NCBI RefSeq assembly: GCF_901827175.1
Contig: NZ_LR594662.1
Coordinates: 1,116,001-1,180,000, forward strand
Direction of reading: 5' to 3'
Source: Variovorax sp. RA8
GTDB lineage: Bacteria > Pseudomonadota > Gammaproteobacteria > Burkholderiales > Burkholderiaceae_C
Length of the DNA stretch: 64,000 nt
Made by a program: the position numbers and the translations under genes. This document shows positions 36,445 through 39,242 of the stretch, piece after piece. Under the pieces are notes generated by a model. That model had not been told where the DNA came from. It searched no databases and saw nothing but the letters and a program-made list of their open reading frames with translations. How positions within the stretch are numbered: the first letter of the stretch is position 1; each line of letters opens with the position of its first letter.

Positions 36445-37905
36445 ATGATTTCCCGCGAACCCACCCTCGAGCGCCTCGCCACGGCGCAGCAGCTCCTGCT
36501 CACGCCCTTCGGCCTGGACGAATCGCATCTGCTGCGCGCCCTGGCCGAGATCACCGCCCACAAGGTGGACGATGCCGACCTCTATTTCCAGTACACCCGC
36601 AGCGAGGGCTGGAGCCTGGAGGAGGGAATCGTCAAGACCGGCAGCTTCAGCATCGACCAGGGCGTGGGCGTGCGCGCCGTCAGCGGCGAGAAGACGGCCT
36701 TCGCCTATTCGGACGACATCTCCGAGGCCTCGCTGCTCGATGCGGCGCGCACCGTCCGCACCATTTCCGCCGCCGGCCGCAACGCACGGGTGAAGGCGCC
36801 GACGCGCAAGGTCGCGTCCAGCCGTTCGCTGTATGGCGGCGTGGATCCGATCTCGACGCTCGACAGCGCCGCCAAGGTCGAGCTGCTGGGCAAGGTCGAG
36901 AAGCTCGCGCGCTCGCGCGATCCGCGGGTCGCGCAGGTGATGGCAGGCCTGGCGAGCGAATACGACGTGGTGCTGGTGGCGCGTGCCGACGGCACCCTGG
37001 CTGCCGACGTGCGGCCGCTGGTGCGCCTCTCGGTCACGGTGATTGCCGAGCAGAACGGCCGTCGCGAGGTGGGTTCGGGCGGCGGCGGCGGGCGCTTCGG
37101 CCTCGCCTACTTCGATGAGGCGCGCATCGCCGAGTTCGTCGACCAGGCGGTCCAGCAGGCGCTCGTCAACCTGGATTCGCGTCCGGCGCCCGCGGGCGAG
37201 ATGACCGTGGTGCTCGGCCCGGGCTGGCCCGGCATCCTGCTGCACGAGGCGATCGGCCATGGGCTGGAGGGCGACTTCAACCGCAAGGGGTCGAGCGCCT
37301 TCTCGGGCCGCATCGGCGAACGCGTGGCCGCCAAGGGCGTCACCGTGCTGGACGACGGCACCATCGCCGACCGCCGCGGCTCGCTCAACGTGGACGACGA
37401 GGGCAACGCCACGCAACGCAACGTGCTGATCGAGGACGGCATCCTCAAGGGTTACATCCAGGACTCCCTCAACGCGCGCCTGATGAAGGTCAAGCCCACC
37501 GGCAACGGCCGCCGCGAGAGCTATGCCCACGTGCCCATGCCGCGCATGACCAACACCTACATGCTCGGGGGCGACAAGGTGCCGCAGGAGATCGTCGCCA
37601 GCATCAAGAAGGGGCTCTACGCCACCAACTTCGGCGGCGGTCAGGTCGACATCACCAGCGGCAAGTTCGTGTTCTCGGCCAGCGAGGCCTATTGGGTGGA
37701 AAACGGCAAGATCCAGTACCCCGTGAAAGGCGCGACCCTCGTCGGCAACGGTCCGGACGCGCTGACGCGCGTCACCATGATCGGCAACGACATGGCGCTC
37801 GATTCCGGCGTGGGCACCTGCGGAAAGGAAGGCCAGAGCGTGCCGGTGGGCGTCGGACAGCCCACCTTGCGCATCGATGGCCTGACCGTCGGCGGCACGG
37901 CCTGA
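36445..37905 (+). CDS. tldD: TldD, metalloprotease subunit
   Basis: A 486-residue TldD/PmbA family protein that with TldE degrades unfolded peptides and matures some ribosomally made peptides. The zinc motif HEAIGHGLEGD is intact, flanked by GGGGGRFGLAYFDEARI and NTYMLGGDKVPQEIV. Length matches the family. TTG 36442 precedes ATG 36445 in frame; the ATG is preferred. The partner tldE (pmbA) is not in this window. No Shine-Dalgarno is visible, in line with a possible leaderless transcript. Confidence 0.95.
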   Translation: MISREPTLERLATAQQLLLTPFGLDESHLLRALAEITAHKVDDADLYFQYTRSEGWSLEEGIVKTGSFSIDQGVGVRAVSGEKTAFAYSDDISEASLLDAARTVRTISAAGRNARVKAPTRKVASSRSLYGGVDPISTLDSAAKVELLGKVEKLARSRDPRVAQVMAGLASEYDVVLVARADGTLAADVRPLVRLSVTVIAEQNGRREVGSGGGGGRFGLAYFDEARIAEFVDQAVQQALVNLDSRPAPAGEMTVVLGPGWPGILLHEAIGHGLEGDFNRKGSSAFSGRIGERVAAKGVTVLDDGTIADRRGSLNVDDEGNATQRNVLIEDGILKGYIQDSLNARLMKVKPTGNGRRESYAHVPMPRMTNTYMLGGDKVPQEIVASIKKGLYATNFGGGQVDITSGKFVFSASEAYWVENGKIQYPVKGATLVGNGPDALTRVTMIGNDMALDSGVGTCGKEGQSVPVGVGQPTLRIDGLTVGGTA

Positions 37906-37937
37906 GGCTTTTGCGCAACGGGCATTCCGCTTTCCTG

Positions 37938-37946
37938 TGCTACATT
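37938..37946 (+). promoter_or_regulatory. Extended -10 of the aroG leader transcript
   Basis: TGCTACATT (TG at 37938-37939, hexamer TACATT at 37941-37946). The start site would fall at about 37953, just before the leader-peptide ATG at 37955. No convincing -35 at 17 bp, so this relies on the extended -10. Confidence 0.45.
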
Positions 37947-37954
37947 GCGCCCCT

Positions 37955-38029
37955 ATGTCTTTGCGCGTCGCATTTTTCTTTTCGTACTTTTGGTTCCCGG
38001 ACTCCGGCGGACGAGAGGCGAGCGCGTAA
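37955..38029 (+). CDS. Aromatic leader peptide of the DAHP synthase gene
   Basis: A 24-codon ORF starting ATG 37955 and ending TAA 38027-38029. The peptide begins MSLRVAFFFSYFWFP: within eight codons (37973-37996) it has five Phe, one Tyr and one Trp. Such clusters of the pathway's end products are the hallmark of attenuator leader peptides like TrpL and PheL. A terminator hairpin with a T tract lies 24 nt beyond its stop and the DAHP synthase gene follows. No Shine-Dalgarno is seen, and the predicted mRNA start is almost at the ATG. Confidence 0.8.
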   Translation: MSLRVAFFFSYFWFPDSGGREASA

Positions 38030-38061
38030 AGCACACTGAATACCCCTCCCAGAACCGCCGG
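38004..38061 (+). promoter_or_regulatory. Predicted antiterminator of the aroG attenuator
   Basis: CCGGCGG at 38004-38010, inside the leader ORF, is identical to the 3' arm of the terminator and can instead pair with CCGCCGG at 38055-38061, the terminator's 5' arm. A ribosome stalled on the Phe/Tyr codons at about 37973-37987 would leave 38004-38010 free and favour this pairing; a ribosome that reaches the stop at 38027 would cover it. Confidence 0.65.
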
Positions 38062-38086
38062 CGCCTCGAGCCCCGGCGGTTTTTTT
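38053..38086 (+). terminator. Attenuator terminator upstream of aroG
   Basis: Stem AACCGCCGG (38053-38061) with CCGGCGGTT (38073-38081), 11-nt loop, followed by a run of seven T (38080-38086). It lies between the leader peptide and aroG, with the aroG ATG 37 bp downstream, so it should terminate transcription when aromatic amino acids are plentiful. Confidence 0.85.
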
Positions 38087-38123
38087 ATGCCCCGATGATT
38101 TCCATCCCTTGAAGGAACGAACC

Positions 38124-39242
38124 ATGAGCACGAGCAACGTCCCTGCTACCGAGAACTGGTATGCGAGCGTCGAGAAAACCAGCCGAACCGACGACGAACG
38201 CATCAAGGACATCACCGTGCTACCCCCTCCCGAACACCTGATCCGCTTCTTCCCGATCCGTGGCACGCCGGTCGAGACGCTGATCACCGGCACCCGGCGG
38301 GCCATCCACAACATCATGAGCGGCAAGGACGACCGGTTGCTGGTGGTGATGGGGCCCTGTTCGATCCACGACCCGGACGCCGCGCTCGAATATGCCAGGC
38401 GCCTGAAGACAGAGCGCGAGAAGTACGCCGGGACGCTGGAGATCGTGATGCGGGTCTACTTCGAGAAGCCGCGCACCACGGTGGGCTGGAAGGGGCTGAT
38501 CAACGACCCGTACCTCGACGAGAGCTTCCGCATCGACGAAGGGCTGCGCATCGCGCGCCAGCTGCTGATCGAGATCAACCGGCTCGGCCTGCCTGCCGGC
38601 AGCGAGTTCCTCGACGTGATCTCGCCGCAGTACATCGGCGACCTGATTTCCTGGGGCGCGATCGGCGCGCGGACGACCGAGAGCCAGGTGCACCGCGAGC
38701 TGGCCTCGGGGCTGTCGGCGCCCATCGGCTTCAAGAACGGCACCGACGGCAACATCCGCATCGCCACCGATGCGATCCAGGCGGCGGCGCGCGGCCATCA
38801 CTTCCTCTCGGTGCACAAGAATGGCCAGGTTGCGATCGTGCAGACCAACGGCAACAAGGACTGCCACGTCATCCTGCGCGGCGGCAGGACGCCCAACTAC
38901 GACGCCGGCAGCGTGGCTGCGGCCTGCAAGGACCTGGAGGCCGCCAAACTGCCGCCGACGTTGATGGTGGACTGCAGCCATGCCAACAGCAGCAAGCAGC
39001 ATCAGAAGCAGATCGAGGTGGCCCAGGACATCGCGGGCCAGATTGCGCATGGCGGCCGCAGCATCTTCGGCCTGATGGTCGAGAGCCATCTGAACGCCGG
39101 TGCCCAGAAATTCAGCGCTGGCAAGGACAGCGTCGCCAACCTCGAATACGGCAAGAGCATCACCGACGCCTGCCTGGGCTGGGATGATTCGGCGCAGGTG
39201 CTGGCGTTGCTGTCGCAGGCGGTCAAGGCGCGCCGGGGCTGA
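38124..39242 (+). CDS. aroG: 3-deoxy-7-phosphoheptulonate (DAHP) synthase, class I
   Basis: A 372-residue AroF/G/H-type DAHP synthase, the first enzyme of the shikimate pathway (PEP plus erythrose 4-phosphate). Visible: LLVVMGPCSIHDPDAALEYARRL, RVYFEKPRTTVGWKGLINDP, GARTTESQVHRELASGLSAPIGFKNGTDG, LRGGRTPNYD and VDCSHANSSKQ with metal ligands. The ATG at 38124 follows AAGGA. Regulation by the upstream attenuator is inferred; feedback by an aromatic amino acid is usual for the family but the specificity (Phe, Tyr or Trp) cannot be read with confidence. Confidence 0.95.
   Translation: MSTSNVPATENWYASVEKTSRTDDERIKDITVLPPPEHLIRFFPIRGTPVETLITGTRRAIHNIMSGKDDRLLVVMGPCSIHDPDAALEYARRLKTEREKYAGTLEIVMRVYFEKPRTTVGWKGLINDPYLDESFRIDEGLRIARQLLIEINRLGLPAGSEFLDVISPQYIGDLISWGAIGARTTESQVHRELASGLSAPIGFKNGTDGNIRIATDAIQAAARGHHFLSVHKNGQVAIVQTNGNKDCHVILRGGRTPNYDAGSVAAACKDLEAAKLPPTLMVDCSHANSSKQHQKQIEVAQDIAGQIAHGGRSIFGLMVESHLNAGAQKFSAGKDSVANLEYGKSITDACLGWDDSAQVLALLSQAVKARRG

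Follow-up and report, generated by a model that had tools for sequence, protein, structure and literature searches.

The spacer between tldD and a DAHP synthase gene in Variovorax sp. RA8 contains a short open reading frame (ORF) packed with aromatic codons and, behind it, a hairpin followed by a T run. The question raised by this locus is whether these parts form a transcription attenuator that controls the DAHP synthase gene and which amino acids it would sense. The window, i.e., the whole stretch of DNA analysed, is 64,000 nucleotides long, and the parts of the locus are listed in Table 1. The original prediction had proposed a leader ORF, three pairing arms, a T run and a downstream aroG gene. 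Direct reading showed that the coordinates of the ORF, the arms, the T run and the gene were all right, base for base, and that Phe-Phe-Phe-Ser-Tyr-Phe-Trp-Phe indeed occupies eight codons (37973-37996). Folding of the window sequence showed that the terminator stem begins at 38051, and the T run is 37 bp from the ATG of the DAHP synthase gene (38124).

Table 1. Parts of the putative attenuator and its neighbouring genes (positions within the window).
Feature	Position	Strand	Basis or remark
Upstream neighbour tldD	36448..37905	+	NF008006 match over cut-off; context only
Extended -10 promoter element TGTGCTACATT	37936..37946	+	Hexamer 37941-37946, ends 8 nt before leader ATG
Predicted transcription start, at the leader ATG or immediately upstream of it	37952..37955	+	Inferred from distance to -10 hexamer
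Leader ORF, 24 codons, MSLRVAFFFSYFWFPDSGGREASA, ATG 37955, stop TAA 38027-38029	37955..38029	+	Direct reading and conservation
Regulatory codon run FFFSYFWF, codons 7-14	37973..37996	+	Direct reading and conserved aromatic columns
Arm 2, CCGGCGG, 5' half of antiterminator core	38004..38010	+	Exact GGCGG in 136/140 loci
Purine-rich extension of arm 2, GAGAGG	38013..38018	+	Co-variation with segment before arm 3
Pyrimidine-rich partner of GAGAGG, CCTCCC	38045..38050	+	Duplex prediction and permutation test
Arm 3, CCGCCGG, common to antiterminator and terminator	38055..38061	+	Reading, fold and co-variation
Arm 4, CCGGCGG, 3' half of terminator	38073..38079	+	Reading, fold and co-variation
Run of seven T of the intrinsic terminator	38080..38086	+	Direct reading
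DAHP synthase gene (AroF/G/H family), presumed target	38124..39242	+	TIGR00034 over cut-off

The gene name aroG was upheld in part. The enzyme scored 532 bits with the family model TIGR00034 (aroFGH; cut-off 173), which confirms a DAHP synthase. The AroG-specific model NF006723 gave 543, under its cut-off of 568, so 'aroG' is a loose label here. An intrinsic terminator lies between the leader ORF and the DAHP synthase gene in the window and in its relatives. A simple terminator scan of the region did not list the leader terminator and listed no sigma-70 site, probably because the scan allows loops of 3-8 only and demands a -35 hexamer. Rfam 15 gave no family match at the leader region at gathering level. 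At E values up to 10 it returned five chance-level matches, none of them to an amino-acid leader (including Phe_leader and Trp_leader).

Conservation was assessed in 111 loci, comprising the upstream regions of a 31-locus set, for which 30 of the matches of a search were taken, and those of the best 80 of 581 relatives. The genera in the best 80 of 581 were Variovorax, Acidovorax, Polaromonas, Ramlibacter, Curvibacter, Hydrogenophaga, Rhizobacter and others, and the nearest among them was Variovorax paradoxus ISL-3, with an enzyme identity of 94%. A leader ORF with an aromatic run was present in 107/111 loci, a figure that leans to near relatives because the best 80 of 581 and 30 of the further matches were used. 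One hundred of the 107 leader loci were distinct, and 61 representatives were aligned. The aromatic codons and all three arms, whose conservation had been predicted, were conserved in the window's family. The four remaining loci were L002, L023, L087 and L110. The second DAHP synthase of Variovorax sp. RA8 (L002) has no aromatic leader upstream, no leader was found within the 31 bp present at L087, and none was seen in the 178 bp of L110. At L023, a one-base shift in the aromatic run puts the leader out of frame, with the arms and the promoter intact; this shift may be a sequencing error or a recent loss.

A detector demanding a leader with at least 5 aromatics in 10 residues plus a terminator was positive in all 61 representatives, which had been chosen as leader-bearing. 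It was positive in only 2/610 first-order Markov shuffles of the representatives, none with at least 7 aromatics, and in 0/61 reverse strands. The coincidence of a chance ORF with a chance terminator is ruled out by these shuffles and by the conservation in 107/111 loci. A related explanation would see in the hairpin no more than a constitutive terminator, or a read-through buffer, that follows tldD and has a leader ORF in front of it by chance. Stems of this type do act as plain terminators at other places; in genome G155, for example, one lies downstream of a different gene. This explanation does not suit the in-frame aromatic run, the promoter situated between tldD and the terminator, the conservation of three arms or the rarity of such an arrangement in shuffled sequences, and we consider its probability negligible.

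The aromatic run appears to be kept at the level of the amino acids that its codons specify. The alignment of the 61 representatives has seven aromatic columns, in which 149 codon cells departed from the commonest codon; 115 of these still encoded F, Y or W. For comparison, a single-base change in TTT or TAC yields another F, Y or W codon in 2/9 cases under the standard code. Such conservation of codons supports translation of the leader. The interchange of F, Y and W bears on the idea of a TnaC-like nascent-peptide arrest, in which the hydrophobic aromatic peptide (with a free amino acid or ligand), and not a scarcity of charged tRNA, would stall the ribosome. The run is certainly hydrophobic, FWF-like words recur, and YFWF is very common in the window's family. 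The free exchange of F, Y and W in the run, together with a later peptide that varies, is read in other frames or stops early, suits a reading by codons better, and arm 2 would be freed wherever in the run the ribosome stalled. Peptide arrest is thus improbable, and stalling for want of charged tRNA is the preferred reading.

The bases that follow the run are constrained as RNA. In Acidovorax and its kin, CGA has become the stop codon TGA within the otherwise conserved GGCGGAnGAGAGG, and Rhizobacter and some Ramlibacter carry identical post-run bases in another reading frame. Over 140 loci, the GGCGG core of arm 2 stands in frame 0 in 101, in frame 2 in 33 and in frame 1 in 6. Because all three frames are used while the aromatic codons stay in frame, the constraint on arm 2 acts on the RNA. 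The spacing is also narrow: in 133/140 loci, GGCGG and the last aromatic codon are 10-15 nt apart, measured from the first base of that codon. The arm 2 finder favoured distances of approximately 13, a preference that made no choice among exact matches, since exact GGCGG occurs as one copy in 136/140 loci and as a second copy in none.

The original prediction had suggested looking for compensatory changes in the arms, and co-variation was found across families, both in the terminator stem and in the antiterminator flanks. In 37 diverse sequences, 94.6% of the cells of the terminator stem pair, and two-sided changes occur at 4/11 pairs; one pair is A-U in 17 sequences and G-C in 17. The covariation score of the stem was 0.168, compared with 0.113 (sd 0.008) for shuffled and at most 0.086 for slid alignments, and 0/500 shuffles scored as high. 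Counted by pair types, the stem did not exceed the shuffles (500/500). The base adjacent to the core in arms 2-3-4 is C-G-C in 98 of the 140 loci, T-A-T in 14 and another combination in 28. On the enzyme protein tree, arms 3 and 4 change jointly on 4 branches and arm 2 joins on 2; the variable base of arm 2 changes 11 times, mostly without arms 3 and 4.

The antiterminator exceeds the seven-base core, since purines after arm 2 pair with pyrimidines before arm 3. The mean energy of the flank pairing was -7.38 kcal/mol for a locus's own segments and -6.33 kcal/mol for swapped ones, with 0/3000 permutations as good. Swapping within families gave -6.84 kcal/mol, again with 0/3000 permutations as good, and control segments (reversed, downstream and upstream) had no effect. 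The permutation and shuffle tests remove relatedness only in part. The purine-rich extension can also be viewed as a Shine-Dalgarno-like site at which a ribosome would pause or re-initiate, instead of or besides its part in the antiterminator. Most families do have such a purine-rich word directly after GGCGG (GGCGG+5). The co-variation of GAGAGG with the segment before arm 3 and the varying distances of the stop codons speak for a pairing role, so that we regard the Shine-Dalgarno-like function as unlikely, although it is the least unlikely of the alternatives considered here.

The folds agree with the co-variation in supporting the predicted competition, in which arm 3 pairs either with arm 2 or with arm 4; sequence and co-variation support an alternative antiterminator that has arm 3 in common with the terminator. 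For the folding model, the ribosome was given a footprint of constant size, and the transcript was folded before synthesis of arm 4. In the window, the antiterminator probability was 0.93-1.00 for A-site positions F7-F12 and fell to 0.77 at W13, 0.39 at F14 and 0 from P15 on. The profile over relatives used 99 of 101 loci, two with a distance below 8 being left out. The antiterminator exceeded 0.5 in 92 of these loci with the A site at the last aromatic codon, in 38 at one codon beyond, in 3 at two codons and in 1 at three codons. The switch point of the fold therefore lies one to two codons beyond the last aromatic codon: in the fixed-footprint model, a ribosome on an aromatic codon leaves arm 2 exposed, whereas one slightly further along covers it, a result that partly restates the spacing of the arms.

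When the ribosome was omitted, the antiterminator exceeded 0.5 in 44/99 loci and was 0.00 in the window. The outcome without translation thus differs among species, and a 1:2 pause hairpin is not general. For the full RNA of the window at equilibrium, the terminator was favoured at every ribosome position. Since the terminator always wins at equilibrium once arm 4 has been made, the switch must be kinetic, like that of other attenuators.

An extended -10 element (TGnTAnA(T/G)T) ends 6-8 nt before the leader ATG in 61/61 representatives; the pattern was chosen after the sequences had been inspected. No conserved -35 element was found in the 61 representatives, and information is near zero upstream of the -10. 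The arrangement TGTGCTACATT-N5-9-ATG has a single occurrence in the 7.4 Mb genome. A -10 so placed occurs in 82/101 loci, compared with 1.2% at shifted places. By family, it was found in f1 (65/65), f13 (4/4), f23 (4/4), f44 (3/3), f12 (1/1) and f40 (1/1), in part of f4 (2/3) and f10 (2/4), and before no leader ATG of f3, f8, f11, f20 and f32 among the 101 loci. So short a distance between the -10 and the ATG makes a leaderless mRNA probable in the window's family, and leaderless translation of the leader is predicted for the families with a -10 so placed. The promoter with the probably leaderless mRNA, the longer antiterminator and the occurrence in many families go beyond what had originally been predicted.

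Each termination would free a leaderless mRNA of approximately 130 nt, and such an RNA or its peptide, acting in trans, could be the main product of the locus, with the effect on DAHP synthase secondary. In passages of PMC7298713, rnTrpL/peTrpL of Sinorhizobium are reported to act in trans, and this attenuator RNA likewise begins with its ATG. Attenuation in cis accounts for everything that is conserved at the present locus, and the peptide ends vary. We therefore judge a main function in trans to be very improbable and retain cis attenuation, to which a further role in trans may be added.

The anatomy, conservation, co-variation and spacing of the parts are read directly from the DNA, and from them we infer the start at the promoter, translation, stalling, termination and the response to each amino acid. 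RNA polymerase would start from the extended -10 promoter, at or adjacent to the leader ATG, and a ribosome would load on the probably leaderless mRNA and translate FFFSYFWF. When charged aromatic tRNAs are scarce, the ribosome would stall in this run. Arm 2 (CCGGCGG and GAGAGG) would then be free to pair with the nascent arm 3 and the pyrimidines preceding it, and the antiterminator, kinetically trapped, would let transcription enter the DAHP synthase gene. When charged tRNAs are plentiful, the ribosome would advance one or two codons and cover arm 2, arms 3 and 4 would pair, and transcription would terminate at approximately 38086. On this sequence evidence, the DAHP synthase gene is very likely controlled by ribosome-mediated transcription attenuation. 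The best explanation of the leaders is attenuation that would be driven mainly by Phe and Tyr codons, plus Trp in the window's family.

Among 140 leaders, Phe is present in 140, Tyr in 137 and Trp in 122. Leaders of the window's family type contain Trp in 99/100 cases and those of other families in 23/40. The leader is likely to sense all three amino acids; the weight of Trp is doubtful, since Trp is mostly single per leader. The genome of the window has no aromatic leader in the 600 bp before trpE (L331), before the TrpE-like genes L332 and L333, or before pheA (L334); a stretch of 600 bp would not extend to a leader situated further up, ahead of an earlier gene in the operon. One ORF with two Trp and no terminator in the trpE region was not counted. 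TTT is used at 3 of the 5 Phe codons of the window's run. In the leaders of the 101 loci, 276/451 Phe codons are TTT, compared with 1/51 in rodA, tldD and the enzyme gene. The preference for TTT perhaps slows the ribosome in the leaders.

The distribution of the leader was surveyed in 180 evenly sampled genomes of the order Burkholderiales. The enzyme was found in 139, and 120 upstream regions were examined (the window's own genome being among the rest). A leader with a terminator was present in 40/120 genomes and 13/36 families. By family, it was present in f1 (4/4), f3 (5/5), f13 (4/4), f20 (3/3) and f23 (4/4), and 23 families had none. Because 80/120 genomes lack it, the leader is not a general feature of the order. 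A covariance model trained only on the 61 sequences of the window's family type matched 28/120 genomes of the order, 25 of these 28 outside the window's family. Among the 30 matches listed, 28 sit directly before a DAHP synthase gene; the remaining two are a leucine leader and a bare terminator.

In 143 genomes of the class, the model matched 7: two of the window's family, G227 and four with the terminator half only. G227 lies outside the order and has a full-length match before DAHP synthase, with the leader VNTPCARFYRWYYFPKPPAEEGVRAF and a terminator (L259, L310). Its enzyme groups with those of family f4 (support 0.966), which suggests transfer of the gene together with its leader. No leader was found in the 28 other upstream regions outside the order (0/28; 81 class genomes had an enzyme match). 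On an enzyme tree of 106 sequences, 49 of them with a leader, presence required 11 changes; when the labels were shuffled 300 times, at least 28 were needed, and 35.3 on average. Three branches of the DAHP synthase family retain the leader.

Two further arrangements were observed in the survey. L218 (G165, f44) has the usual terminator stem before DAHP synthase and no aromatic leader was found there, a GTG ORF with four aromatics not being counted as a leader; three f44 relatives do have the leader. The f32 genomes G194 (L165/L145) and G155 (L161/L240) each encode two DAHP synthases, and in both the leader stands on one copy only, of a different enzyme type from that of the window.

A comparable arrangement for leucine was seen in the genome of the window. 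The leuA gene (L242/L258, C1:3998515-3998646, minus strand) is preceded by a leader for leucine, MNKISLALLLIPHGRRR. The same CTGTGCTACATT box stands 10 nt ahead of its ATG, and the locus also has an arm GGGCGG and a terminator CGGCCCG/CGGGCCG-T. CTA serves for two of the Leu codons in this leader. In G085, MSNFSISLLLDVRHGQVW stands before another LeuA-like gene.

The aromatic leader suggests that the flow into Phe, Tyr and Trp is set at the first gene of the pathway, where a ribosome would read aromatic codons. The group concerned is large and includes the soil- and plant-associated genera Variovorax, Acidovorax and Polaromonas. We speculate that entry into the pathway is controlled by a single leaderless leader working as a Phe/Tyr/Trp OR-gate, and that this leader, as an RNA cassette usable in any frame and spread over 13/36 families, can move with its gene to another order; we hold this combined reading tentatively, at somewhat under an even chance. 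The covariance model is an annotation tool that finds the element by sequence. The collected leaders are material for comparing single- with multi-amino-acid attenuators, and they offer natural variants for the rules of attenuation: leaderless or not, with or without Trp, and with the stop before or after arm 2.

No description of such a DAHP synthase leader in Burkholderiales was found in a literature search without most subscription journals. A 2004 comparative study of proteobacterial attenuators, and also Neshat 2014, may already list the element. The main text of a premature terminator survey (PMC2965389) and that of a study of Burkholderia start sites (PMC4603805) contain neither aroG nor DAHP. 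The mechanism is of a known kind, represented by trpL and pheL and, at the same enzyme step, by AroR-aroF, and its occurrence in this lineage is apparently undescribed.

The pheL-pheA and trpL-trp systems of enteric bacteria are leader-peptide attenuators for one amino acid each, as summarised in PMC11802643. They share with the present locus a leader ORF with regulatory codons and the competition of an antiterminator with a terminator. They differ in their target genes; the present locus has no match to the Rfam Phe or Trp leaders and no conserved 1:2 hairpin. A leader mRNA that starts at or near the ATG, without a ribosome binding site, is described in passages on trpL of Sinorhizobium meliloti (PMC7298713) and ilvBNC of Corynebacterium (PMC11857589; Morbach et al. 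2000, by title). These precedents concern other amino acids, genes and lineages, whereas leaderlessness is predicted here, and in some families only.

The closest likeness in gene and enzyme step is the AroR leader peptide, which precedes aroF, encoding DAHP synthase, in Corynebacterium glutamicum (Neshat et al. 2014, as cited in parts of PMC11802643 and PMC4046766). According to the relevant passage of PMC11802643, this leader (Phe-Tyr-Phe) responds to Phe limitation, and Tyr availability is irrelevant. As far as these passages go, the DAHP synthase gene is preceded in both systems by a leader peptide rich in or containing aromatic residues, for attenuation at the entry of the pathway. They belong to different phyla, and the three aromatics of the Corynebacterium leader, Phe-Tyr-Phe, contrast with seven in eight codons, including Trp, in Variovorax.
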